This document shows positions 360 through 51,325 of a DNA stretch of 64,000 bases, piece by piece. The stretch is from Gemmatimonadaceae bacterium. Its GTDB lineage: Bacteria; Gemmatimonadota; Gemmatimonadetes; Gemmatimonadales; Gemmatimonadaceae. The stretch lies in contig JALHNZ010000003.1 of assembly GCA_022843265.1 (NCBI GenBank), forward strand, positions 1 to 64,000, given 5' to 3'. The position numbers and the translations under genes are program-made. The notes under the pieces are model-generated. The model ran no database searches, was not told the origin of the DNA, and saw only the letters and a list, made by a program, of their open reading frames with translations. How positions within the stretch are numbered: position 1 is the first letter of the stretch; every line of letters begins with the position of its first letter.

Positions 360-2219
360 CTAGGTGCTTCGCAGCGCGTCGAGCGCGGCAATCGCATCGG
401 GCATGTGCTGTTGCAGTGTAAAGTACCCGGGCCATGGATCGTAGCCGGACTGCGCAAGTTGGGCCGCCGAGTGCACGGAGAACTGACCCGCGCTCTCATA
501 CGAGTTAAGCAGGCTCCACGTGACGGGAACCGCTACGGTTGCGCCGGCTCTCGCGCGCGTTGACCATGGCGCGATGGCGGTAGCGCCGCGTTCATTACGC
601 AGATAGTCAACGAAAATCCTGCCTTTGCGACGCGCTTTGGACATCGAGGCCACAAAACGCGCTGGCTCGCGGCCTGCCAGTTCGTCTGCAATATCTCGAC
701 AGAACTGTTTGATCACCGGCCAGTCAGCGCCTGCAACGATGGGTACAATCACGTGCACACCCTTGCCGCCGCTCAACAACGGGAAGCTCAAAAGCCCGAC
801 ATCCTCAAGCAGCGATGCCACCGTGCGTGCGGCGTCGCGTACGTCGGCGAAACCAAGCGCCTCATCGGGATCCAGATCAAACACAAGGCGCTCGGGATAT
901 TCCACCGCATCAACGCACGAGCCCCACAGGTGCCATTCGAGCACGTTCATATGCACGCCCGCGAGCAGCCCCGCGAGATCGTGCACAAAAAAATACTGTT
1001 CGATGTCGCCGTCCTTCTCCGCAATGGCGACGCGCTCCATCGCCTCGGGAAATCCGCCGCTGTCGTGCTTCTGAAAGAAGCAGTGTTTGGCCCGACCTTG
1101 TGGACAGCGCAACAAGCTGAGCGGACGATTGGCAACGAACGGCAGCATGAGATCAGCGACCGCGTCGTAGTAGCCGGCCAGGTCGGCTTTGGAAACACCC
1201 TGTTCCGGAAACACAACGCGCTCCGGGCTGGTGAGCCGTTGACCCACACGCGCCGCTGCGTCGATACCTCGCGCTGCGAGATCTGGCGTGTCGAAAGACA
1301 CAGCGCTCGCGGGCTTGTCATGGCGGAGTGCAATGAACGACGGGTGACGTAACCGACCGTCGGGCGTTTGCTCGGTGAACGCAATTTCCGCCACGAGATC
1401 GGGCGCCACCCATCGTGCGCCTCGCGCAATTTCTCGAGGCACGTCAACAAACGGACTTGTTTTCCGCGCGCGCGCGTCGAGTTGCTGTTGCATGGCGTGC
1501 GACTCGTCAACCGTGAAGCCAGTTCCAACACGCCCGCGGTACACCAGCTGTTCCGCTTCCCACGTGCCAAGCAGCAGCGACGCGAACGTGTGCTTGCGTG
1601 ACGACGGTGTCCACCCGGCGATGACGAACTCTTGCCGCTTCCCGCACTTGATCTTGAGCCAACTTCTGGTGCGTGTGTGCCGATATCGATCGGTGGTGCG
1701 CTTGGCGATCACCCCTTCATGTCCGTCCTTGCATACGGCGTCAAACACCGCCTGTCCATTGCCGAGCACATGGCTGGAGAATCGGATGGGCGCGGAGTCC
1801 GAGATGTCACCGAGCAGTGCTTCCAGTCGTTCTTTGCGATCAACCAGCGGCAGCCCGGTAAGATCTTCACCGTCTGCTTCAAGCAGATCGAAGGCGAAGA
1901 ACACCAGCGGCGCACCGGTCTTCAATGCGCTGGTGAGCGTAGAAAAATCAGCCCGGCCATCAGCCGTGAGCGCACACACTTCACCGTCAATCAGCGCGGT
2001 ACCCTCGGTGAGCGCCGCAAGCGGGGCGACGAGCGACACAAACGTGTCTGTCCAATCGTGACCGTTGCGCGTGTAGAACCGCACGTCGCTTCCGCTTACC
2101 GACGCAATACAGCGATAGCCGTCGTACTTCATCTCAAAGATCCATTCCGAGCCGGTGGGAATGGAATCAGCGAGCGTCGCGAGTTGCGGGGCGCGAAACG
2201 CTGGCAAAGAGCCTGGCAT
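360..2219 (-). CDS. ligD: ATP-dependent DNA ligase LigD: N-terminal ligase domain + C-terminal primase/polymerase domain, no phosphoesterase domain
   Basis: Ligase motif EMKYDGYR, then LigD polymerase-type segment LTSPERVVFPEQGVSKADLAGYYDAV...LLRCPQGRAKHCFFQKH; start chosen at MPGSLPAF next to the Ku stop. Confidence 0.93.
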   Translation of the reverse strand: MPGSLPAFRAPQLATLADSIPTGSEWIFEMKYDGYRCIASVSGSDVRFYTRNGHDWTDTFVSLVAPLAALTEGTALIDGEVCALTADGRADFSTLTSALKTGAPLVFFAFDLLEADGEDLTGLPLVDRKERLEALLGDISDSAPIRFSSHVLGNGQAVFDAVCKDGHEGVIAKRTTDRYRHTRTRSWLKIKCGKRQEFVIAGWTPSSRKHTFASLLLGTWEAEQLVYRGRVGTGFTVDESHAMQQQLDARARKTSPFVDVPREIARGARWVAPDLVAEIAFTEQTPDGRLRHPSFIALRHDKPASAVSFDTPDLAARGIDAAARVGQRLTSPERVVFPEQGVSKADLAGYYDAVADLMLPFVANRPLSLLRCPQGRAKHCFFQKHDSGGFPEAMERVAIAEKDGDIEQYFFVHDLAGLLAGVHMNVLEWHLWGSCVDAVEYPERLVFDLDPDEALGFADVRDAARTVASLLEDVGLLSFPLLSGGKGVHVIVPIVAGADWPVIKQFCRDIADELAGREPARFVASMSKARRKGRIFVDYLRNERGATAIAPWSTRARAGATVAVPVTWSLLNSYESAGQFSVHSAAQLAQSGYDPWPGYFTLQQHMPDAIAALDALRST

Positions 2220-2220
2220 A

Positions 2221-3111
2221 TCAGCCGACCTTTCGAGCCGCACTTGCCTTGCGCGCCGTTTTCTTCGCCGGCTTCGCTATGGTCTTCGCGGACGATTTCC
2301 GGGCGGACTTCGGGGCGCCGGTCTCCAGACTTTGTTTGAGCGCCGCCATGAGATCCAGCACCTTCGTCTCACCACGCGGCTGGGCCGCTTCGCCGCCAGA
2401 TACGCTCACGCGGTTCTCCTTGGACGCCAGCTTCTCGTCGATCAGTTCGCGCAAAGCCGTCTGGTAGTTGTCCTTGAACGCCGCCGCATCAAAGGGCGCA
2501 GTCTTCTTCTTGATGAGGGCCGTCGCCACGTCAATCATGTCCTCATCGGCCTTCGCCGATGAAATCTGCGCAAAAAACGGATCTGCCTTTCGTATCTCCG
2601 ATTCGTAATGCAGTGTCTCGAGCATGATACCCGTACCCGTGGGCTTGAGCGCCACGAGATACTCCTTGCCGCGCAATGCGAGCTGTCCGAGTCCGACCTT
2701 CTCCGACTCGCGCAGCGCATCACGGATCACGCGGAACGCGTCTTCAGCCAGATCATCGGACGGTACCACAAAATACGATTTGTCATAGTAAATAGGGTCG
2801 ATCTCGCAGGCCCCCACAAACTGCGTCAGCTCCAGCGTTTTGCGTGTCTCAAGCTTCACCGCATTGATTTCTTCTTCGGTGAGCAGCACGTAGTCGCCCT
2901 TTTCGTACTCAAAGCCCTTCATGATTTCATCCCGATCAACGGGCCCGATACCTGCCACTACTTTTTCGTAGTTGATGGGCTTGCCGGACGGTTCGTGGAT
3001 CTGACGAAACGAGGGCTTCGCGTTGGATTTCGTGGCGGTGAACAGCTCCACTGCGATCGAGACGAGTGAGAGACGAAGTTGTCCTTTCCAGATCGGTCGT
3101 GTGGGGGGCAT
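2221..3111 (-). CDS. ku: Non-homologous end joining protein Ku
   Basis: IWKGQLRLSLVSIAVELFTAT, YEKGDYVLLTEEEINAVKLETRKTLEL and LALRGKEYLVAL are Ku hallmarks; adjacent to ligD; Lys/Ala-rich tail. Confidence 0.95.
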   Translation of the reverse strand: MPPTRPIWKGQLRLSLVSIAVELFTATKSNAKPSFRQIHEPSGKPINYEKVVAGIGPVDRDEIMKGFEYEKGDYVLLTEEEINAVKLETRKTLELTQFVGACEIDPIYYDKSYFVVPSDDLAEDAFRVIRDALRESEKVGLGQLALRGKEYLVALKPTGTGIMLETLHYESEIRKADPFFAQISSAKADEDMIDVATALIKKKTAPFDAAAFKDNYQTALRELIDEKLASKENRVSVSGGEAAQPRGETKVLDLMAALKQSLETGAPKSARKSSAKTIAKPAKKTARKASAARKVG

Positions 3112-3157
3112 ATAAAGCTCTCGCAGGTCAAGGGGCATCAGGCGTTACGAAGCACGC

Positions 3158-4204
3158 TTACAGCATTGAAATCACAGTGCTCTCTGAAGCGCGACGGTAG
3201 TTGCGTGCGTACGCCACCTTGCGCTCAATGGCTTCAATCACGGTGCGGGTGAAATCGACTTTCTCAAAACCTTCCGCTGACCCAAGTCCGCCGGGGCTGA
3301 ACACGTTGATCTCCATCAGCTTGTCGCCCACGATGTCGAGCCCTACGAGGAACATGCCGTCCATGACCAGCTTGGGCCGCACCAGCTCCGCAATGCCGAG
3401 TGCAACGTCATCAATCTTTGCACGCTTCACCGCACCGCCTGCTGAGATATTGCTGCGCATGTCGCCTTCTGATCGCGTGCGACGGAATGCGGCGTACTTG
3501 CCCTCCGTCATAAGCGGCACACCGTTCATAAGAAACATTCGCGTGTCCCCCTGTTCCGCCGCAGGCAAGTACTCCTGGGCCACGATGTAACCATCGCGAC
3601 TGACGGCATCGATCATCTGATTCAGGTTAGACGCGTCTTCCGGTCGCACAAGAAATACACTTTGACCGCCAGAGCCTTGTAGCGGCTTCAGCACGATCTT
3701 TCCGCCTTCGCTCTTGGCAAACGCCTTGATATCGGCGCGGTCACGCGTGATGATCGTTCGAGGGCGCACAGCTTCCGGGAAGTCCTGGAAGTACATCTTG
3801 TTGAGCGCGCCGAGCAATCCATCGGGGTGATTCAAGACCACGAGTCCCTGGCGCATGGCGCGTCGGCAGAACACCACGCCCGCTTGCGCCGCCCATGGAC
3901 GCTCGATGGCATCGTCGGAGGGATCGCTGCGCAGCATCACCACGTCGAGGTCTGACAACTTGATGCGTTCGACCTCAGCTTTGGGTCCGCGAAGTGCGGA
4001 CAGATACGACTCGCCCGACGCGTACTTCTTTCCGGGTGCGGTATGCGCGCGCGCCATGATGGTGGCGTCCTGGTCATATCCAAAATCGGCCACGTTGATG
4101 TAATACGCCTGATGACCCATACTGAGCGCGGCCATCGCCAGGCGGGTCGTGGTGTAGTTGTCGCCTTCCGTTTCCAGTGCGTTCACAACAAAGCCGATCT
4201 TCAT
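3158..4204 (-). CDS. Glutathione-synthetase-like ATP-grasp ligase
   Basis: ATP-grasp signatures KIVLKPLQGSGGQSVFLV and GLDIVGDKLMEINVFSPGGLG. Confidence 0.85.
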   Translation of the reverse strand: MKIGFVVNALETEGDNYTTTRLAMAALSMGHQAYYINVADFGYDQDATIMARAHTAPGKKYASGESYLSALRGPKAEVERIKLSDLDVVMLRSDPSDDAIERPWAAQAGVVFCRRAMRQGLVVLNHPDGLLGALNKMYFQDFPEAVRPRTIITRDRADIKAFAKSEGGKIVLKPLQGSGGQSVFLVRPEDASNLNQMIDAVSRDGYIVAQEYLPAAEQGDTRMFLMNGVPLMTEGKYAAFRRTRSEGDMRSNISAGGAVKRAKIDDVALGIAELVRPKLVMDGMFLVGLDIVGDKLMEINVFSPGGLGSAEGFEKVDFTRTVIEAIERKVAYARNYRRASESTVISML

Positions 4205-6156
4205 GGTGCGGTCTCTGAAAGAATTTGTAGCAGGGAGTGGCTTTGTCGCAGGCGCTGCAGCCTCGGCGCTGCGCCGAACGCCGTGAGAAAGCGCGGGGTG
4301 ATGCGTGGTGGTTGCAGATACTCGCGCCAGCGCAGTTCCTGAATGGCCGGCACGTCGGAGAGCGCGAGCTTGCCCAGCAACAACGGGTCGAGTTCACCGC
4401 CCCCGCGCAGGTAAGCAAGAAAATCCTGTAACCCTCGCAGATAGATCACATCTTTGGTGAGTCCACCGCTGCGATACACGCGCATGCAAATCGTAAATGC
4501 GGTGGTCGGCGCGAAGTCGTAGTCGTTGGTGAGCAGTCGATAGCAGTCAACAAATGGCGCGCCGTCTACCAGCGCGCGGACGGCAATCACACGTCCGGCC
4601 AGCACACGAACGCGACTACCCGTGAGCGCTCCAATCAGATACTCCGACGTCACCGCAAGCCCCTCCTGCGTTTCTTCGTATCCGGCCAGGCCGCTCGCAA
4701 GCTGGTGCAGCGGCTGCGCGAGTCCGTTGGAATGGGTGACGACATGTGTGCCGATCTCGTGTTGCACCAAGGCGCGTGCTCGGGTCGGCGTGACGCGCAG
4801 CGTGCTGCTGATCAACAAGTCACCGTCGGACACAAGCACACCGGCAACATCCGTGCGTATGTAGACCTTCGCGCCAAGACCAGGGTGCACCTGTCGGTAG
4901 TGCGTCAACTCCTCCTCCGCCATGGCGGCAAAGTCTGTCGCGGTCACAACACCTTGCGAGTCGGGCGCGTCATCGTCGTCATCCTCGGCCGCGCTGCGTG
5001 AGGTCACGCTGAGCAGCTTCACCGCCAACGCGTGCAGCGCTTCACTGACCTCGCCATACACGGACAGACTGCCGTACAGAAAGCGGGCGGTGTTGCGGTC
5101 GCCGAGCATGGTAAGCTTGCGCGACATTTCGATCCGGCAGGCCGACAGGAGCGTGGACAGCGTCGGGTCTTCCAGTTGCTCGAGCGGCAGGTTGTAGAGT
5201 TGGCGCTTCAGCGCCGCGACATCCACGATCAGTGGACGGTAGTCAAACTCGGGATCTCGGTCAGCGCCATCACGCATGAACTGCACGCGAGCGCGGTCGG
5301 CATTGACCGGCGTGACTTGCAACAAAAAGTCGAACGATCGCGAAATGTGCGTGAGCGCCTCGTCGGCGTCCTGTACAGCGCGCACAGCGGTTCGCCGGCC
5401 GAGCGCGTGAAAGTGCGACGGCTCGAGCGCGGTATGCAACTGTGCAAAGTGATAGGCGGTCTGTCGGATGGCCAGCGACATGCCGCGTCGAAGTGTTTCA
5501 AACAGCACGGGATACGGCGTGCCCGTACGCGCCTGGCGATACACGGGTTGCACTTCAATACCAATGGCGCTGCACCCCTGCGCTCGACCGGGCACGCACG
5601 ACAGCAACTCGGCGAGGTTCGGCGGGGACGGTGAGCCGCTTGTTTCTACTTCAACATCCAGCGGCGGCGGCCGCAGCGGAATGTTGCTCAGCGCGTTCCG
5701 CAATGCACGAACCGTCGGATCGCCAATCGGAAGCAGCGGCGAGACGATCCGGAAGGTTGGATCGGGCACTTTCCGTGCGACGTCCATACCTTCGCGACGC
5801 GGTTCCGCCGTCCAGACTTCAAGCAGCAGGAACTCCCCAAATTTCTCAACCATCACATTGGCAATGCCGCTCACCAACTGCTGCAGGCGAGGGTGCAGCT
5901 CGGCTGTGCCCGGCGCGATGAGATGCGACGCTTCACCAATCACCAGCTGGGCGGTTGGTCCAACGGTGTCTTGCGCCGGCTCGCGATAGATGCAGAGAAA
6001 CGGCAACGCACGATCGATGTGCAGGCGACCCCCTCCCGGGAGCGAACGACGTACACCGTGCCCCAGACGCAATCGTTCGCACACCTGTGTGATAAAGCCA
6101 GGTGTGATGCGTTGTCGGGCCGAAAGGGATGCGTTTTCCGCGGCAGTCTTCGGCAT
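4201..6156 (-). CDS. DUF1704 / QEGLA-motif zinc metallopeptidase (flavohemoglobin expression-modulating QEGLA motif family; MATCAP-like)
   Basis: HEIGTHVVTHSNG (HExxxH-type) followed by GYEETQEGLAVTSEYL; 4-nt overlap with the ATP-grasp gene. Confidence 0.87.
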   Translation of the reverse strand: MPKTAAENASLSARQRITPGFITQVCERLRLGHGVRRSLPGGGRLHIDRALPFLCIYREPAQDTVGPTAQLVIGEASHLIAPGTAELHPRLQQLVSGIANVMVEKFGEFLLLEVWTAEPRREGMDVARKVPDPTFRIVSPLLPIGDPTVRALRNALSNIPLRPPPLDVEVETSGSPSPPNLAELLSCVPGRAQGCSAIGIEVQPVYRQARTGTPYPVLFETLRRGMSLAIRQTAYHFAQLHTALEPSHFHALGRRTAVRAVQDADEALTHISRSFDFLLQVTPVNADRARVQFMRDGADRDPEFDYRPLIVDVAALKRQLYNLPLEQLEDPTLSTLLSACRIEMSRKLTMLGDRNTARFLYGSLSVYGEVSEALHALAVKLLSVTSRSAAEDDDDDAPDSQGVVTATDFAAMAEEELTHYRQVHPGLGAKVYIRTDVAGVLVSDGDLLISSTLRVTPTRARALVQHEIGTHVVTHSNGLAQPLHQLASGLAGYEETQEGLAVTSEYLIGALTGSRVRVLAGRVIAVRALVDGAPFVDCYRLLTNDYDFAPTTAFTICMRVYRSGGLTKDVIYLRGLQDFLAYLRGGGELDPLLLGKLALSDVPAIQELRWREYLQPPRITPRFLTAFGAAPRLQRLRQSHSLLQILSETAP

Positions 6157-6948
6157 TCAGTCGCCTACCTGATGCAGCGCCTGTTCAAGCTTCGGGACCA
6201 TCAGTGCCAGGACGTTTCGTATGGCGTATACGTGCGCCGGGTTTGCTTCGCCAGTCCATTCATCCATAAATGATTTGCGAAACTCAATGGAGAGCGAGCA
6301 CGCATGTTCGGGAAACTCATTGTGCACCCACTGGGAAAAGTGCCCGCCTTTGAACTTGACGTTCTCTCGCACATCGAGCGTGCGTCCGAGCACATCTGTC
6401 GAACGCAGGTGATTCACGACACAGTCCACCACTGGCGCCCAACGTTCGCGGTCCATGCTGCCCGTGCCCACATTGACTTCCGGGTTCAACGCTTCGGCCG
6501 CCGGCGGCGCATCCGAACCATCGCGTCGATGGTTGTAGCTGTGCAGGTCAAGCACTACAAAATGCCCCCACTGCTTACGCATGTGCTCAAGCGTAGTGCT
6601 TGCAGCGGCATAAAACGCATCGTATTGCGCGAGCGATGCGCTGATCATTTCCGGCGTTGTCGGATGGCGCCAAACGTTCAACCCCCATGCGTCATCCGGC
6701 GTCTGGTACACCGCTTTCTCACGTGGCCGATTGAGGTCGACCTCAAAACGTGAACGAAGGCCGATCAGGCGCGTTTCAACGACGTTGGTCCACTGTGCCG
6801 TGAACGGATCCTCTTCCCGAAGGCGCTCCGCATCGCTCAGGGCAATTGCCGAACGCACATCGTCACGCAACGCGTGACCGTCATGAATGGCGGCCGCGCA
6901 CACGGGAGCGTCATATCCGATCTGCGTTGAGAAGCTTGGCGGCACCAC
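6157..6948 (-). CDS. N-formylglutamate amidohydrolase family protein
   Basis: FEVDLNRPREKAVY, VVLDLHSYNHRRDG, CSLSIEFRKSFMDEWTG; immediately abuts the DUF1704 gene. Confidence 0.85.
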   Translation of the reverse strand: MVPPSFSTQIGYDAPVCAAAIHDGHALRDDVRSAIALSDAERLREEDPFTAQWTNVVETRLIGLRSRFEVDLNRPREKAVYQTPDDAWGLNVWRHPTTPEMISASLAQYDAFYAAASTTLEHMRKQWGHFVVLDLHSYNHRRDGSDAPPAAEALNPEVNVGTGSMDRERWAPVVDCVVNHLRSTDVLGRTLDVRENVKFKGGHFSQWVHNEFPEHACSLSIEFRKSFMDEWTGEANPAHVYAIRNVLALMVPKLEQALHQVGD

Positions 6949-7127
6949 TGCATCGACACCGGGCGCACGGACGTGTTCCGTAGGCTGTGAGCAATATCAC
7001 GAATGAACTTCCGCAGCAGGCTCAGCAATATCCGAGTGAGGGACGTCACCGCCCTCCACGCGCCCCCCGAAAGGACGATTGTTGCGGTGAGCGTCGTACA
7101 CCACGATTCGAGTATGCCATACCCAAC

Positions 7128-8966
7128 ATGCCAATGAGCAATGCCACGACCGAGCCGCATTCCACAGCGCTCCCAGCAGGCGTCGAAGATGATGCGTATC
7201 CGAGGCCACAACTGGTACGTTCGCATTGGGAGAGTCTCAATGGACCGTGGCGTTTCTGCAAGGATGACGACAAGCAATTCGGACATCCACGCGACGTCGA
7301 TGAGTGGCCGCAGGAAATTCGCGTGCCGTTTCCGTTGGAGTCGAAAGCGAGTGGCATTGGCGACCGCGGCTTTCATCTCGCGTGCTGGTATCAGCGCGAC
7401 TTCAGCATGCGCGCGGATGGCCAACGTGTGCTCCTGCATTTCGGCGCGGTGGACTACCGGGCGCGTGTGTGGGTGAATGACAAACACGTGGTGAGTCATG
7501 AAGGTGGGCACACCCCGTTCTCCGTGGACATCACGAGCGTTCTGCAGGCATCTGGCGAGCAGGTTGTGACGGTGTTTGTCGAAGACGATCCCCATGAACT
7601 CACAAAGCCGCGCGGCAAACAGGATTGGCAGCTTGAGCCGCACTCGATCTGGTATCCACGAACGACGGGCATCTGGCAGACCGTCTGGCTCGAACGTGTG
7701 GCGCGCACGTACATCGAAAAGATTCGCTGGACACCGTACGTGGAAAACTTCGCGCTACATTTTGAAGCGCGTGTCATTGGCGATCCACAAGACGACCTCT
7801 GGCTGGACCTGGAGCTGCATCACAACGGGCGCCTGCTCGCCAGCGATAGCTACCGCGTAATCGATCGCGAGGCGGACCGACGCATCATCCTCTCTGATCC
7901 GGGCATCGACGACTACCGGAATGAGCTCTTGTGGAGTCCGGAGAATCCGAAGCTGATTGGCGCGCGCATCCGACTGCGCAGTGGAGATCAGGTACTCGAC
8001 GAGTTTACGTCGTACACGGCCCTGCGGTCGGTCGCGATTTCACGTGATCGGTTCATGCTCAACGGCCGTCCGTACCCGCTCCGCATGGTGCTTGATCAGG
8101 GCTATTGGCCCGACACGCTGCTGGCCGCACCCAATGATGCGGCGCTGCGGCGAGACGTAGAGTTGGCCAAAGCCATGGGCTTTAACGGTGTGCGCAAACA
8201 CCAGAAGGTGGAGAACCCACGCTATCTCTACTGGGCCGACCGACTCGGACTCCTCGTTTGGGAAGAAATGCCGTCGGCATATCGATTCACGCGCACGGCG
8301 ATTAAACGGCTGATTCGCGAATGGAGCGATGTGATTGAGCGCGATTACAGCCATCCCTGCGTGGTCGTGTGGGTGCCTTTCAATGAGTCGTGGGGCGTTC
8401 CCGAGCTCACCTCGGTGGGTGCCCATCGCAACGCCGTGGAGGCGTTGTATCATCTGACGAAAACGCTCGATCCCACGCGGCCGGTGATCGGCAATGACGG
8501 CTGGGAGAGCAGTGCCACCGACATTATTGGCATTCACGATTATGATGACAATCTTGAGCACCTGCGCCAACGGTACGGCCCCGAAGTAAGCGCGCAGCAA
8601 CTGTTTGATCGGCGTCGTCCCGGTGGTCGCATTCTGACCCTTGATGGGTATCCGCATCGCGGGCAACCGATCATGCTCACGGAGTTCGGCGGCATTGCGT
8701 ACGATACGAACAAGAGTGAAAAATCGCCCGCCACCTGGGGCTACTCGGTGGCGGCGGAAGAGGAAGAGTTCACACGAAAGTTCACGGAACTGCTGGAGGT
8801 CATTACGCACACCGCGCTGTTCAGCGGCTATTGCTACACACAGTTCGCCGACACCTTTCAGGAAGCAAACGGCCTGTTGACGGCAGAACGCGTGCCCAAG
8901 ATTCCCCTCGAGAAAATCGCGGCGGCAACGCGTATTTCTCGCAATCGCATTGCGGGTGGTGTGTAA
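7128..8966 (+). CDS. Glycoside hydrolase family 2 (beta-galactosidase/beta-glucuronidase-like)
   Basis: SLNGPWRF, sugar-binding jelly-roll, MGFNGVRKHQKVENPRYLYWADRLGLLVWEEMPS, WVPFNESWG; the upstream ORF extension looks non-coding, so start set at 7128. Confidence 0.9.
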   Translation: MPMSNATTEPHSTALPAGVEDDAYPRPQLVRSHWESLNGPWRFCKDDDKQFGHPRDVDEWPQEIRVPFPLESKASGIGDRGFHLACWYQRDFSMRADGQRVLLHFGAVDYRARVWVNDKHVVSHEGGHTPFSVDITSVLQASGEQVVTVFVEDDPHELTKPRGKQDWQLEPHSIWYPRTTGIWQTVWLERVARTYIEKIRWTPYVENFALHFEARVIGDPQDDLWLDLELHHNGRLLASDSYRVIDREADRRIILSDPGIDDYRNELLWSPENPKLIGARIRLRSGDQVLDEFTSYTALRSVAISRDRFMLNGRPYPLRMVLDQGYWPDTLLAAPNDAALRRDVELAKAMGFNGVRKHQKVENPRYLYWADRLGLLVWEEMPSAYRFTRTAIKRLIREWSDVIERDYSHPCVVVWVPFNESWGVPELTSVGAHRNAVEALYHLTKTLDPTRPVIGNDGWESSATDIIGIHDYDDNLEHLRQRYGPEVSAQQLFDRRRPGGRILTLDGYPHRGQPIMLTEFGGIAYDTNKSEKSPATWGYSVAAEEEEFTRKFTELLEVITHTALFSGYCYTQFADTFQEANGLLTAERVPKIPLEKIAAATRISRNRIAGGV

Positions 8967-8967
8967 C

Positions 8968-10086
8968 GTGCGCTTGTCGCAGGAATTTCAGCGGGTCTTT
9001 GGCGCAACACCCGATACGGAGTCCAGCGCGCCGGGGCGTGTGAACCTGCTCGGTGAGCACACTGACTACAACGACGGCTATGTGTTGCCCACGGCGATTC
9101 CGCAACGCACCTGGGTGGCTCTACGTGCGAACGGTGGCACTGAACACGTGGTGCATGCTCTCTCCCTGAGCCAGACGTCGCGGTTCAGTCGCGCGCAACC
9201 GCCGGTGGAGCGTTTCGCGACGTACGTGTTTGGATGCTTCGAAACACTGCGCGACTGGGGGGCGGACATCCCGTATTGCGACGTGCTGGTCGATTCGGAT
9301 GTACCGATCGGCGTTGGCCTCTCGTCGAGTGCGGCGCTGGAAGTGGCCACGCTGCGCGCGGCGCGCGATCTGCTTTCCCTACATGCCCTCGATGATGTGA
9401 CGATCGCGCAACTTGCGCAGCGCGCTGAAATAGAATTCGCCGGCGTGCGCTGCGGCATCATGGACCAGATGGCGTCGAGCCTCGCCGACACCGGACGCAT
9501 GCTGTTTCTCGACACGCGCACACTTGACCGTGCGTTGTTACCCCTGCCTGCGCAGGCGCGCATTCTGGTGCTGGATTCCGGGGTCAGTCGCTCACTCACG
9601 GACACCGCGTACAACCAGCGACGCGCCGAGTGCGAAGAGGCGGCGCGATTGCTTGACGTGCGTGCGCTTCGTGACGTTACAGAGCTCGGCATGCTTGACG
9701 CGTTGCCCGAGCTACTCCGGCGTCGGGCTCGCCATGTAGTTACGGAAAACATGCGCGTGTTGCAGGCGCGTGGCAGCGATGATTCAGCATCGGTCAGCGC
9801 CGAAGAGTTTGGCCGGCTCATGAATGCATCGCACGACAGTCTGCGCGATGACTTTGAGGTGTCGGTGCGGGAACTCGATATTCTTGTGGCGCTCTTGCAG
9901 GCGCACGAATCCGTGTACGGCGCGCGCCTGACAGGCGCCGGGTTCGGCGGCGCCTGCGTGGCACTGTGCCGCGATGATCCAACGCTGATCGCGCAGGACA
10001 TTCTGCCAGACTATAATCGCGATGGGCGACAGGGACGCGTGTTGGTGCCCGCCTCTGCGCACGTTTTGTCTGCGACATGTCGGTAG
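8968..10086 (+). CDS. galK: Galactokinase
   Basis: APGRVNLLGEHTDYNDGYVLPTAI, GVGLSSSAALEVA, GAGFGGACVAL; GTG start right after the GH2 stop. Confidence 0.95.
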   Translation: MRLSQEFQRVFGATPDTESSAPGRVNLLGEHTDYNDGYVLPTAIPQRTWVALRANGGTEHVVHALSLSQTSRFSRAQPPVERFATYVFGCFETLRDWGADIPYCDVLVDSDVPIGVGLSSSAALEVATLRAARDLLSLHALDDVTIAQLAQRAEIEFAGVRCGIMDQMASSLADTGRMLFLDTRTLDRALLPLPAQARILVLDSGVSRSLTDTAYNQRRAECEEAARLLDVRALRDVTELGMLDALPELLRRRARHVVTENMRVLQARGSDDSASVSAEEFGRLMNASHDSLRDDFEVSVRELDILVALLQAHESVYGARLTGAGFGGACVALCRDDPTLIAQDILPDYNRDGRQGRVLVPASAHVLSATCR

Positions 10087-10988
10087 ACACTGGAAACGTC
10101 ACGCTCCGCACGGAGACGCTTGACGTCGCGTTCCGCGTATCACCACATCTGCTAGGAGTGTCGCTCCGCCACCGTGGCGTCGAGCTGTTGCGCGAGACAG
10201 ACAACATTGAACGCTCGGCAAGGCTTGGGCACCCGTGTGGTATTCCGCTGCTGCATCCGTGGGCCAATCGCCTTGAGCGGCCCGACTATGTCGCGGCAGG
10301 TACACACGTGCAACTCGACATGCGTGCACCGCTGCTGCGAAGCGATGACGCGGGGCTTCCGTTGCATGGAGTGCCGTGGTCCCTGCTACGCGCGGTGCCG
10401 GAGGCGCACACCGATCGCGCCTGTACCATGCGCATCGATTGGGACAACGATGAACTCTTGCGGCTGTTTCCGTTTAAGCATGCGCTGCACATTCGGGCGT
10501 CGGTGCACGGTTCTGCGCTCACGATCACCACGGAGATGCGCGCGACTGGCACCGATCACGTGCCCGTCAGTTTCGGTTTCCATCCGTATTTCGGATTGCC
10601 GGGACGCTCGCGAGCAGCGTGGCGCCTCGGCATGCCCACGCGAGTGCAGTTGCTGCTCGATGATCGAGGAATCCCGTCTGGTGCATCATGCCTGCGCGCT
10701 GCGTCGAACAACTCGCTGGGCATCAAATCGTTCGACGATGCCTTTGCCCTTATCGATTCGTACGCCGAGTTTTCAATCAGTGATCATACGCGCCGGATTC
10801 GCGTGCAGTGTGTAGACGGATACACGCACGCGCAGGTATACGCGCCGGCAGATCAGGCGTTTGTGTGCGTTGAGCCTATGACCGCAGCGGTGAATGCGCT
10901 GTGTAGCGGGCGTGGGCTGCGCACGGTCGCGCCGGGCGAACGGTTCCGCGCCACATTTCAGATCGCTGTTGAGGACGTCACCGGCTGA
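10077..10988 (+). CDS. galM: Aldose 1-epimerase (mutarotase-like)
   Basis: GIPLLHPWANRLERPDY, LPLHGVPW, VSFGFHPYFGLPG; overlaps the galK end. Confidence 0.82.
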   Translation: MSVDTGNVTLRTETLDVAFRVSPHLLGVSLRHRGVELLRETDNIERSARLGHPCGIPLLHPWANRLERPDYVAAGTHVQLDMRAPLLRSDDAGLPLHGVPWSLLRAVPEAHTDRACTMRIDWDNDELLRLFPFKHALHIRASVHGSALTITTEMRATGTDHVPVSFGFHPYFGLPGRSRAAWRLGMPTRVQLLLDDRGIPSGASCLRAASNNSLGIKSFDDAFALIDSYAEFSISDHTRRIRVQCVDGYTHAQVYAPADQAFVCVEPMTAAVNALCSGRGLRTVAPGERFRATFQIAVEDVTG

Positions 10989-12879: not shown

Positions 12880-13773
12880 ATGTCAGCTCTTCGTCAGCTC
12901 GTTGCCGCCACCGACTTCACCGATGCCGCGGGCCACGCCGTGAATCGTGCGTTCGACCTCGCGTCCATGCACGGCGCGTCGCTTACTCTTGCCCATGGCC
13001 TTGGACTGGATGGGCTGACCCTGCTGCAAGGCATGCTTGGCCCGCGCTTGCCGGAGGTGGCCGCATCGCTACGAGATGCAGCACTCGGTCGCCTGCGAGC
13101 GCTGGCCGACGATCGGGGGCGGCCGAAAGACGTCTCGGTGGACGTGGCCGTGGACGTGGGTTCCGCGAGCCATTTCGTGGACCAACTGGTGCGTTCGAAA
13201 CCGGCGGACCTGCTGCTGGTGGGGGCGCGCAATGGTGATGTGCTGCATCGCGTCCTGATGGGTTCCACCGCCTCACGCTTGCTTCGCACGAGCCCATGCC
13301 CGGTGCTGTCCGTGAAACGTCCGGTCGAGGGGCCGTACCAGCAACTGCTGATCGGCGTGGGCGAGGGCCCCGACACCGAACGGCACGTACGCATTGCTCG
13401 GAGCCTCGCGCCGAATGCCAGCGTCACACTGCTGCATGCCCTCGTGCTACCAGCGTCCGACGCACTGCGTGACGCAGGAATCACCGCCGACATGTACGAC
13501 GCCTTTCGCGCCGAACACATCGCAGCCGCTGAGGAGCGCATCCGCACGTTTGCTCAGCGTATCGGTTTGCCGCAGGAGGCGACGCGCGTGCTCGTGGTCG
13601 TGGGCGATCCGGCTCGCGCTCTGCTCGAGCATGAGGAGTCGGCGGGGTGCGATCTCATCGTCATGGGCCGCATCGACCGGCACTCAGACGAACCGCTGCC
13701 GGTGGGTAGCGCCACGCGACAGGTACTGGCCGGCTCCAGTGCCGACGTGCTGGTGATTGCGGACGCGGCGTAA
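12880..13773 (+). CDS. Universal stress protein with two tandem UspA domains
   Basis: LLVGARNGDVLHRVLMGSTASRLLRTSPCPVLSVK and LIVMGRIDRHSDEPLPVGSATRQVLAGSSADVLVI. Confidence 0.9.
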   Translation: MSALRQLVAATDFTDAAGHAVNRAFDLASMHGASLTLAHGLGLDGLTLLQGMLGPRLPEVAASLRDAALGRLRALADDRGRPKDVSVDVAVDVGSASHFVDQLVRSKPADLLLVGARNGDVLHRVLMGSTASRLLRTSPCPVLSVKRPVEGPYQQLLIGVGEGPDTERHVRIARSLAPNASVTLLHALVLPASDALRDAGITADMYDAFRAEHIAAAEERIRTFAQRIGLPQEATRVLVVVGDPARALLEHEESAGCDLIVMGRIDRHSDEPLPVGSATRQVLAGSSADVLVIADAA

Positions 13774-50440: not shown

Positions 50441-51325
50441 CTACGACGAGGCACCGCGTGTGTCGTTCAACCGATTCCACACGCGCTCCTTCACATCGTC
50501 AACAAAGAGCTGCAGGTGCGGGAACGGGATCTCGATGCCGGCCGCGTCGAGTGCTTTCTTGCTTGCTTCGACAACGCGAAATCTCACGGCGACCTCATCG
50601 ACCGCCTGGCCAACCCAGACTCGCACCGAAAGATTCACACTGGAATCTCCAAGGGAATCCACGACAACCGTCGGCGATGGCGCCGTCAGCACGCCGTCAA
50701 GCCCGCGCACGGCATCCAGAATCACCTCGCGCGCGTCGTTGATCGATTCCTTGTACGCAATTCCCACGGGCACGCTCACACGGGACTCGCCAAACATCGA
50801 GTGATTTACCAGCAACTCGCCGATCACCTGTTTGTTGGGGATTACAACAAAGGTGTTGTCATGCGTTCGTAGTCGGGTCGTGCGAAGCGTGATATCGCGC
50901 ACTTCACCGTAGCGGCCCTGCGTGGAGATCCAATCGCCTACTTTGAATGGTCGATCCCAGAAAATCAGGAAGCCAGCAATCATATTGGCTATCGTTTCCT
51001 GTGCGGCGAAGCCAACGGCAATACCCACTACGCCAAGACCGGCCAGAGCTGCGGCCACGTTAATGCCCAGCTGACTTGCCGCCATGACGAGAGCCACAAC
51101 CCATACGGCGCCGCGCACCACGCCATCCACCAGGAGATGAATCAGCGCGCCGGCGATACCCGCGCGACCGAGCACATTGCGAAGCGCCGGCTGTAAAACG
51201 CGCAGCAGCAGGTAGAACGCCAGCAGCACCAGCAAGGCGGCCAGCACTCGCGGCACGATCGCGACGGCGAGCGCAATCAGCGCGTCGGCGCTAAGCCAAT
51301 CGATGGAATCGAACGAAACGTTCAT
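50441..51325 (-). CDS. Small-conductance mechanosensitive channel (MscS family)
   Basis: ALAGLGVVGIAVGFAAQETIANMIAGFLIFWDRPFKVGDWI. Confidence 0.94.
   Translation of the reverse strand: MNVSFDSIDWLSADALIALAVAIVPRVLAALLVLLAFYLLLRVLQPALRNVLGRAGIAGALIHLLVDGVVRGAVWVVALVMAASQLGINVAAALAGLGVVGIAVGFAAQETIANMIAGFLIFWDRPFKVGDWISTQGRYGEVRDITLRTTRLRTHDNTFVVIPNKQVIGELLVNHSMFGESRVSVPVGIAYKESINDAREVILDAVRGLDGVLTAPSPTVVVDSLGDSSVNLSVRVWVGQAVDEVAVRFRVVEASKKALDAAGIEIPFPHLQLFVDDVKERVWNRLNDTRGASS

Follow-up and report, generated by a model that had tools for sequence, protein, structure and literature searches.

What do three adjoining minus-strand genes in a Gemmatimonadaceae bacterium (contig JALHNZ010000003.1 of assembly GCA_022843265.1) build or take apart? 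The genes lie near the start of the 64,000-nucleotide stretch analysed here (the window) and encode, in order, an enzyme resembling N-formylglutamate amidohydrolase (FGase), a DUF1704/QEGLA-family metallopeptidase, and an ATP-grasp ligase resembling glutathione synthetase (GshB). An initial annotation, made from the sequence alone, had proposed that the trio ligates and removes an amino acid or short peptide on a small molecule or on a protein C-terminus. On re-reading, the three-gene row, its coordinates, its junctions (a 0-nt gap between FGase and DUF1704 and a 4-nt overlap between DUF1704 and ligase), and the HEIGTH and QEGLA motifs are all as that annotation described them, and its family assignments agree with profile scores: 75.7 bits for FGase against PF05013 (gathering cut-off 28.9); 285 bits for the DUF1704 protein against PF08014, the Pfam family now named MATCAP (gathering cut-off 27), and 312.6 bits against TIGR02421, below the cut-off of 338.65; and, for the ligase, 166 bits against PF02955, a match to PF02951, and 443.8 bits against the NCBIfam 'glutathione synthetase' subfamily PRK12458, above the cut-off of 408. 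The answer that we favour, with a probability of about 0.45, is that the trio makes and removes a small acidic peptide in osmotic, ionic, or general stress.

Conservation of the three genes together in other genomes had been set beforehand as a test of the proposal. One genome scan gave 80 loci, ranked by similarity to the window DUF1704 protein, a ranking that places the short-form DUF1704 family outside the sample. (One short-form gene, L118:6512-7792 of Pseudoalteromonas, lies near genes for an AbgT-type transporter and arginine succinyltransferase, unlike the long-form context.) Among the 73 long-form loci having at least 1.5 kb of flank on either side, the ligase gene adjoins the DUF1704 gene in 70 and the FGase gene does so in 58, across many phyla; a script found 69 and 57 of these, and one of each was added by hand (L029 and L090), where long overlapping open reading frames (ORFs) hid the gene. 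At loci of very high GC content, picking ORFs produces antisense artefacts, and two such loci (L025 and L026) were hand-corrected. The scan reached Planctomycetota, Verrucomicrobiota, Kiritimatiellota, Calditrichota, Bacteroidota, Poribacteria, Acidobacteriota, Actinomycetota, Myxococcota, Pseudomonadota, Thermodesulfobacteriota, and Campylobacterota, and plasmid records supplied further copies from Sinorhizobium, Shinella, Aminobacter, Mesorhizobium, and Pararhizobium; that of Sinorhizobium meliloti 1021 is on pSymB, from position 1,122,999. In the actinomycete copies (L067, L058, and L099), FGase and ligase genes converge on the DUF1704 gene; that is, the order is reshuffled and the cluster kept. 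The clustering is far above chance, and we conclude that the neighbourhood formed by the trio is a genuine and widely conserved system. A literature search found no published account of it, an earlier mention being possible.

The distribution within Gemmatimonadota is sparse. Of 395 genomes in the phylum, 14 encode PF08014, and the 59 nearest relatives of the window genome all lack it. The nearest relative operon, L022 (= L032), belongs to a Gemmatimonadetes bacterium of a different family (f5), with a ligase 85% identical and a DUF1704 protein 73% identical to those of the window, and the ligase tree intermixes phyla. Since the closest ligase and DUF1704 sequences sit in another family and the tree mixes phyla, horizontal transfer of the trio is the simplest reading of the sequences. 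Viral contigs scanned for relatives of the DUF1704 protein gave none, and a viral origin was set aside. ABC transporters were likewise rejected as a partner: their cluster (c0, 19 loci) is for the most part synteny conserved in Pontibacter, together with a mixture of ABC proteins unrelated to each other.

In the DUF1704 protein, the N-terminal ~255 residues, additional to the catalytic domain, carry no Pfam name. In hhalign, a profile of this domain made from 57 relatives aligns to the FGase profile with 95.8% probability (E = 8e-9; repeat 95.5%; reverse direction 88.0%), as compared with at most 5.2% for 30 column-shuffled profiles, 2.0% for the ligase, and 0.2% for the catalytic domain. AlphaFold models were confident, with pLDDT values of 90.9 (DUF1704 protein, mean) and 88.8 (other model), and a Foldseek search with the N-terminal domain alone returned FGase 2q7s as the top Protein Data Bank match (E = 4.3e-5, probability 1.00, TM-score about 0.42). 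Nothing conserved in this domain corresponds to the FGase residues H22, E45/E46, and H136. By profile and predicted fold, the domain is a divergent FGase that has lost the likely metal ligands, and, since the match comes without conserved metal-ligand residues, the DUF1704 protein combines a pseudo-FGase with a MATCAP enzyme and is encoded beside a catalytic FGase. The two FGase-type units may pair. In Vibrio sp. HDW18 a single 663-aa protein contains both FGase (42-223) and MATCAP (324-644), and an FGase-MATCAP fusion gene is also present in Photobacterium sp. DA100, where it and the ligase gene overlap. In the Vibrio fusion (L116:6878-8869), the conserved FGase residue H136 is replaced by Y, and the FGase half may be inactive.

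The catalytic half carries the HExxxH motif and downstream glutamate required of MATCAP/PF08014 enzymes, and H466, E467, H471, and E498 are invariant in 57 DUF1704 sequences. With the eukaryotic enzymes MATCAP/TMCP (KIAA0895L and KIAA0895) it shares the Pfam family, HEIGTH, the QEGLA-type glutamate, and a common segment before the motif, at a similarity of only about 15 bits by phmmer. The structure 7z5g (MATCAP) was not among the 50 best matches listed for the full-length protein in Foldseek, so the link to MATCAP is drawn from Pfam profile and motif, not from fold; those matches were dominated by the FGase-like domain and by M32/M14 peptidases, with E > 0.001. Where the window protein has its FGase-derived domain, the eukaryotic enzymes have a microtubule-binding part, and an alpha-tubulin tail is lacking in bacteria.

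These likenesses bear on one alternative: that the trio reversibly modifies a protein C-terminus in the manner of tubulin tyrosination, the ATP-grasp enzyme adding a residue and the MATCAP-type enzyme removing it. The invariant bacterial catalytic motif and the presence of the protein ligases RimK and TTL in the ATP-grasp family suit this idea, as does the activity of MATCAP/TMCP enzymes, which process tubulin tails, stripping Tyr and Glu from acidic tails and also deglutamylating them (PMC10499314). We consider it unlikely, however: no conserved protein target is encoded near the trio, and the nearest kin of the ligase is GshB, which acts on small molecules, and not RimK or TTL. The pairing of an ATP-grasp ligase with a metallocarboxypeptidase recalls RimK with its peptidase partners and TTLL polyglutamylases with CCP, but the window trio uses another ligase subfamily and another peptidase fold.

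The third component, FGase, points toward a small molecule. FGase shares with HutG-type N-formylglutamate amidohydrolase (2q7s) the PF05013 family, the conserved H/E/H pattern, and the NR and E222-K motifs. H22, E45, E46, D134, and E222 are invariant and H136 is 96% conserved, and the window protein keeps the likely metal ligands H22, E45/E46, and H136 together with the N73-R74 pair. It differs from HutG in scoring 31.4 bits against the HutG equivalog TIGR02017, far below the cut-off of 278.75, and no histidine-degradation genes are seen adjoining it; a direct sequence search for a solved relative found nothing. In four Bacteroidota loci (L103, L105, L107, and L108) and one Magnetococcales locus (L096) that have no FGase, a gene of the AstE/AspA (succinylglutamate desuccinylase/aspartoacylase) type stands beside the ligase or DUF1704 gene, a frequent arrangement at loci lacking FGase. 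FGase, AstE, and AspA families release free Glu or Asp from an N-acyl group. Since AstE/AspA replaces FGase and all three families are N-acyl-Glu/Asp hydrolases, the third slot of the operon looks like that of an N-acyl acidic amino-acid hydrolase. This replacement, together with gamma-glutamyl enzymes encoded near some copies, fits a small molecule better than a protein C-terminus.

The gamma-glutamyl enzymes raise a second alternative: that a GshB paralogue makes a glutathione-like or gamma-glutamyl tripeptide redox compound, which the two hydrolases recycle. At L024 (f6 genome), genes for GCS2 and a C26 gamma-glutamyl hydrolase lie directly upstream of the operon, and at L025 (f4 genome) there is a divergent GCS2 gene. 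The best solved relative of the ligase is E. coli GshB (1gsa; E = 3e-36); the two share the ATP-grasp fold, the ATP residues, the R.N..AGG loop, and the D/E/N metal ligands, D290, E298, and N300 of the ligase matching the GshB positions (VGLDI...EIN). The ligase nevertheless falls below the cut-offs for TIGR01380 (183.9 bits, cut-off 299.05) and PRK05246 (202.9 bits, cut-off 272), and, unlike GshB, it is almost always encoded with a peptidase. Its substrate-facing segments are altered from RKDPPFD..YIYAT and SPT to R.DPS.D..RPWA and SPGG, a comparison with which the phmmer alignment to 1gsa agrees where the two overlap. In addition, the window genome (95% complete) has no GshA of family PF04107 (GCS2) or PF04262 (E. 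coli-type), other gamma-Glu-Cys ligase families (for example PF08886) not having been searched, and no second PF02955 protein, the ligase being the sole member. The absence of both GshA families argues against ordinary glutathione synthesis, and for this genome, as far as these two families go, we reject an ordinary GshB working with a distant gshA, the outcome named in the initial annotation as counting against its proposal. A thiol pathway of the broader kind we likewise judge unlikely. A second FGase gene adjoins a GCS2 gene (G125:C118:13260-15127) in the Gemmatimonadota genome that holds the closest relative operon.

Some operons hold two or three ligase genes. In the ligase tree, one clade (100/100) unites the first-position copies of Gemmatimonadota with those of Planctomycetota, and second-position copies fall elsewhere; because the separate clades span two phyla, the copies are old, retained specialisations, not recent duplications. 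DUF1704 is duplicated as well at L035, L074, and L033.

Neighbouring genes connect a subset of loci with osmotic and ionic stress. MscS is represented by 18 genes in 15 of 59 loci, where its frequency in the genomes would predict 0.97 (P about 2e-13, counted by loci), and CorA by 6 genes, as compared with 0.21 expected; these clusters were picked from many, and both are significant after thousand-fold correction in a calculation that ignores kinship among loci. Genes for CorC, K+-channel-like proteins, and antiporters recur near the loci, and at L040 an MgtE gene lies between the DUF1704 and ligase genes. In 8 of 10 rhizobial operons, GGAAC-N18/19-TT, which we take to be the EcfG/RpoE2 promoter pattern, occurs within about 100 nt of the start of the first gene, as compared with 0.054 expected per interval searched; this putative promoter suggests EcfG-like general-stress control of these operons. 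RNA-seq of Photobacterium damselae gives 38.4-fold ('GshB') and 27.5-fold ('QEGLA') higher expression at 1% than at 3% NaCl for two genes with neighbouring locus tags (PMC10308900). On the arrangement in Photobacterium DA100, we assume that these genes are the ligase-fusion pair.

The same data bear on a third alternative: that the trio is a scavenging or catabolic operon, whose amidohydrolases degrade host- or plant-derived N-acyl amino acids and whose ligase salvages the products. Occurrence in rhizosphere bacteria, AA_permease or AbgT-type transporter genes near some copies, and an excess of hydrolases over ligases in single-ligase copies are consistent with this alternative, but most loci have no dedicated transporter, and duplicated, diverged ligases and EcfG-type control are a poor fit; we regard it as quite unlikely.

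A fourth alternative comes from the window itself, where the row continues beyond the trio to at least five genes on one strand: FGase, DUF1704, ligase, Ku (19 nt downstream of the ligase gene), and LigD (overlapping Ku by 23 nt) (Table 1). The range 3158-6948 in the initial annotation thus delimits the trio and not the end of the row. Ku is probably co-transcribed with the trio in the window genome, and Ku/LigD lie 3 kb from the trio in Algoriphagus (L103) and Ku 5 kb from it in Mesorhizobium (L018), as a DNA-damage or dormancy operon acting together with Ku and LigD would have it. Those two are, however, the only loci with Ku nearby among about 90 others, and L022, the closest relative operon, has no Ku. 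We place Ku outside the conserved module and consider joint action with it highly improbable.

Table 1. Features of the trio and of the genes that continue its row in the window.
Feature	Coordinates	Strand	Family or basis
FGase: N-formylglutamate-amidohydrolase-like enzyme, first gene of row	6157..6948	-	PF05013
DUF1704/QEGLA/MATCAP-family metallopeptidase, long form, 651 aa	4201..6156	-	PF08014, TIGR02421
N-terminal domain of DUF1704 protein, residues 1-255, divergent FGase (predicted)	5392..6156	-	hhalign, Foldseek
MATCAP-like catalytic domain, residues about 265-640	4237..5364	-	PF08014 match
HEIGTH, zinc-binding/catalytic motif of DUF1704 protein	4744..4761	-	
QEGLA motif of DUF1704 protein; E498 = likely third zinc ligand	4654..4668	-	
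GshB-like ATP-grasp ligase, PRK12458 subfamily, 348 aa	3158..4204	-	PF02955, PRK12458
Ku (non-homologous end joining)	2221..3138	-	TIGR02772, 292.5 bits
LigD: matches to ligase and polymerase domains, none to a nuclease domain	360..2243	-	TIGR02776, 619 bits

Elsewhere in the window, galactose-type genes in divergent orientation, for a family 2 glycoside hydrolase, a galactokinase, and an aldose epimerase, occupy 6987-10988, a universal stress protein with two Usp stretches is encoded at 12880-13773, 6 kb from the trio, and an MscS-family gene is present at 50798-50995, 44 kb from it.

Returning to the small acidic peptide, we find that the AstE/AspA replacement, the gamma-glutamyl enzyme neighbours, and the removal of Tyr and Glu by MATCAP/TMCP, taken together, point to a Glu/Asp-containing peptide as the substrate class, probably N-acyl or gamma-glutamyl. 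According to the mechanism that we propose, a horizontally mobile module would build and dismantle a small acidic peptide-like metabolite. At the expense of ATP, the GshB-like ligase would couple an amino acid to the carboxylate of an acidic substrate of the N-acyl or gamma-glutamyl kind; in operons with duplicated ligase genes, specialised copies would carry out further such ligations. The MATCAP-type zinc enzyme would take residues off the C-terminal end; and FGase, held beside the DUF1704 protein via the FGase-derived domain of the latter, would hydrolyse an N-acyl or amide bond, releasing an acidic amino acid. Here we infer the substrate class, the direction of reaction, the FGase-DUF1704 contact, and the function in turgor or ion balance. 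The cycle of ligation and removal first proposed for the trio fits the enzyme families and the FGase-MATCAP fusion, and its protein C-terminus version found no positive support; the aspartoacylase-type replacement, the gamma-glutamyl enzymes, and the osmotic and ionic neighbours lead us to prefer a small acidic peptide or N-acyl amino acid. An analogy, and only that, is provided by the osmolyte operon of Sinorhizobium and Pseudomonas for N-acetylglutaminylglutamine amide (NAGGN), in which an N-acyl Gln/Glu peptide is made by ATP-grasp ligation in osmotic stress; among the Pfam-scanned neighbours of the trio, a sample of all neighbours, none has the NAGGN hallmarks, that is, an AsnO-like amidotransferase and a GNAT/ATP-grasp protein.

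Several points weigh against this reading. No metabolite is known to tie the genes of the trio to an osmolyte. MscS, CorA, MgtE, or CorC is near a minority of loci only (21 of 93), and all four are absent beside the window copy. The salinity RNA-seq concerns one organism and the fused form, with locus tags linked through a related Photobacterium. Finally, the genomes of two Gemmatimonadota lineages gave no FGase family member at all, which makes FGase dispensable.

The initial annotation had missed that the N-terminal domain of the DUF1704 protein derives from FGase, as well as the continuation into Ku and LigD, the ligase duplicates, and the stress context; new relative to it are that domain, AstE/AspA in the FGase slot, the distinct ligase copies, and the stress-linked context. 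A more far-reaching version, possible but doubtful, is an undescribed, phylum-crossing peptide-solute system in which GshB-like ligases make acidic peptides of a new class (N-acyl or gamma-glutamyl) that serve turgor or divalent-cation balance, a MATCAP-FGase complex dismantles them after a hypo-osmotic shift, in company with MscS and Mg2+ transporters, and the eukaryotic tubulin detyrosinase descends from the bacterial family. 'Glutathione synthase' annotations by PRK12458 in genomes without GshA are probably wrong, and the salinity transcriptome paper (PMC10308900) appears to have taken a gene of this kind for GshB. If the small acidic peptide reading is true, bacteria of many phyla would share an uncharacterised peptide metabolite connected with osmotic or ionic stress, together with enzymes for its synthesis and removal; the DUF1704/QEGLA family, now under the uninformative label 'flavohemoglobin expression-modulating', would gain a function; and the bacterial proteins related to MATCAP, the tubulin detyrosinase, would have their role explained.

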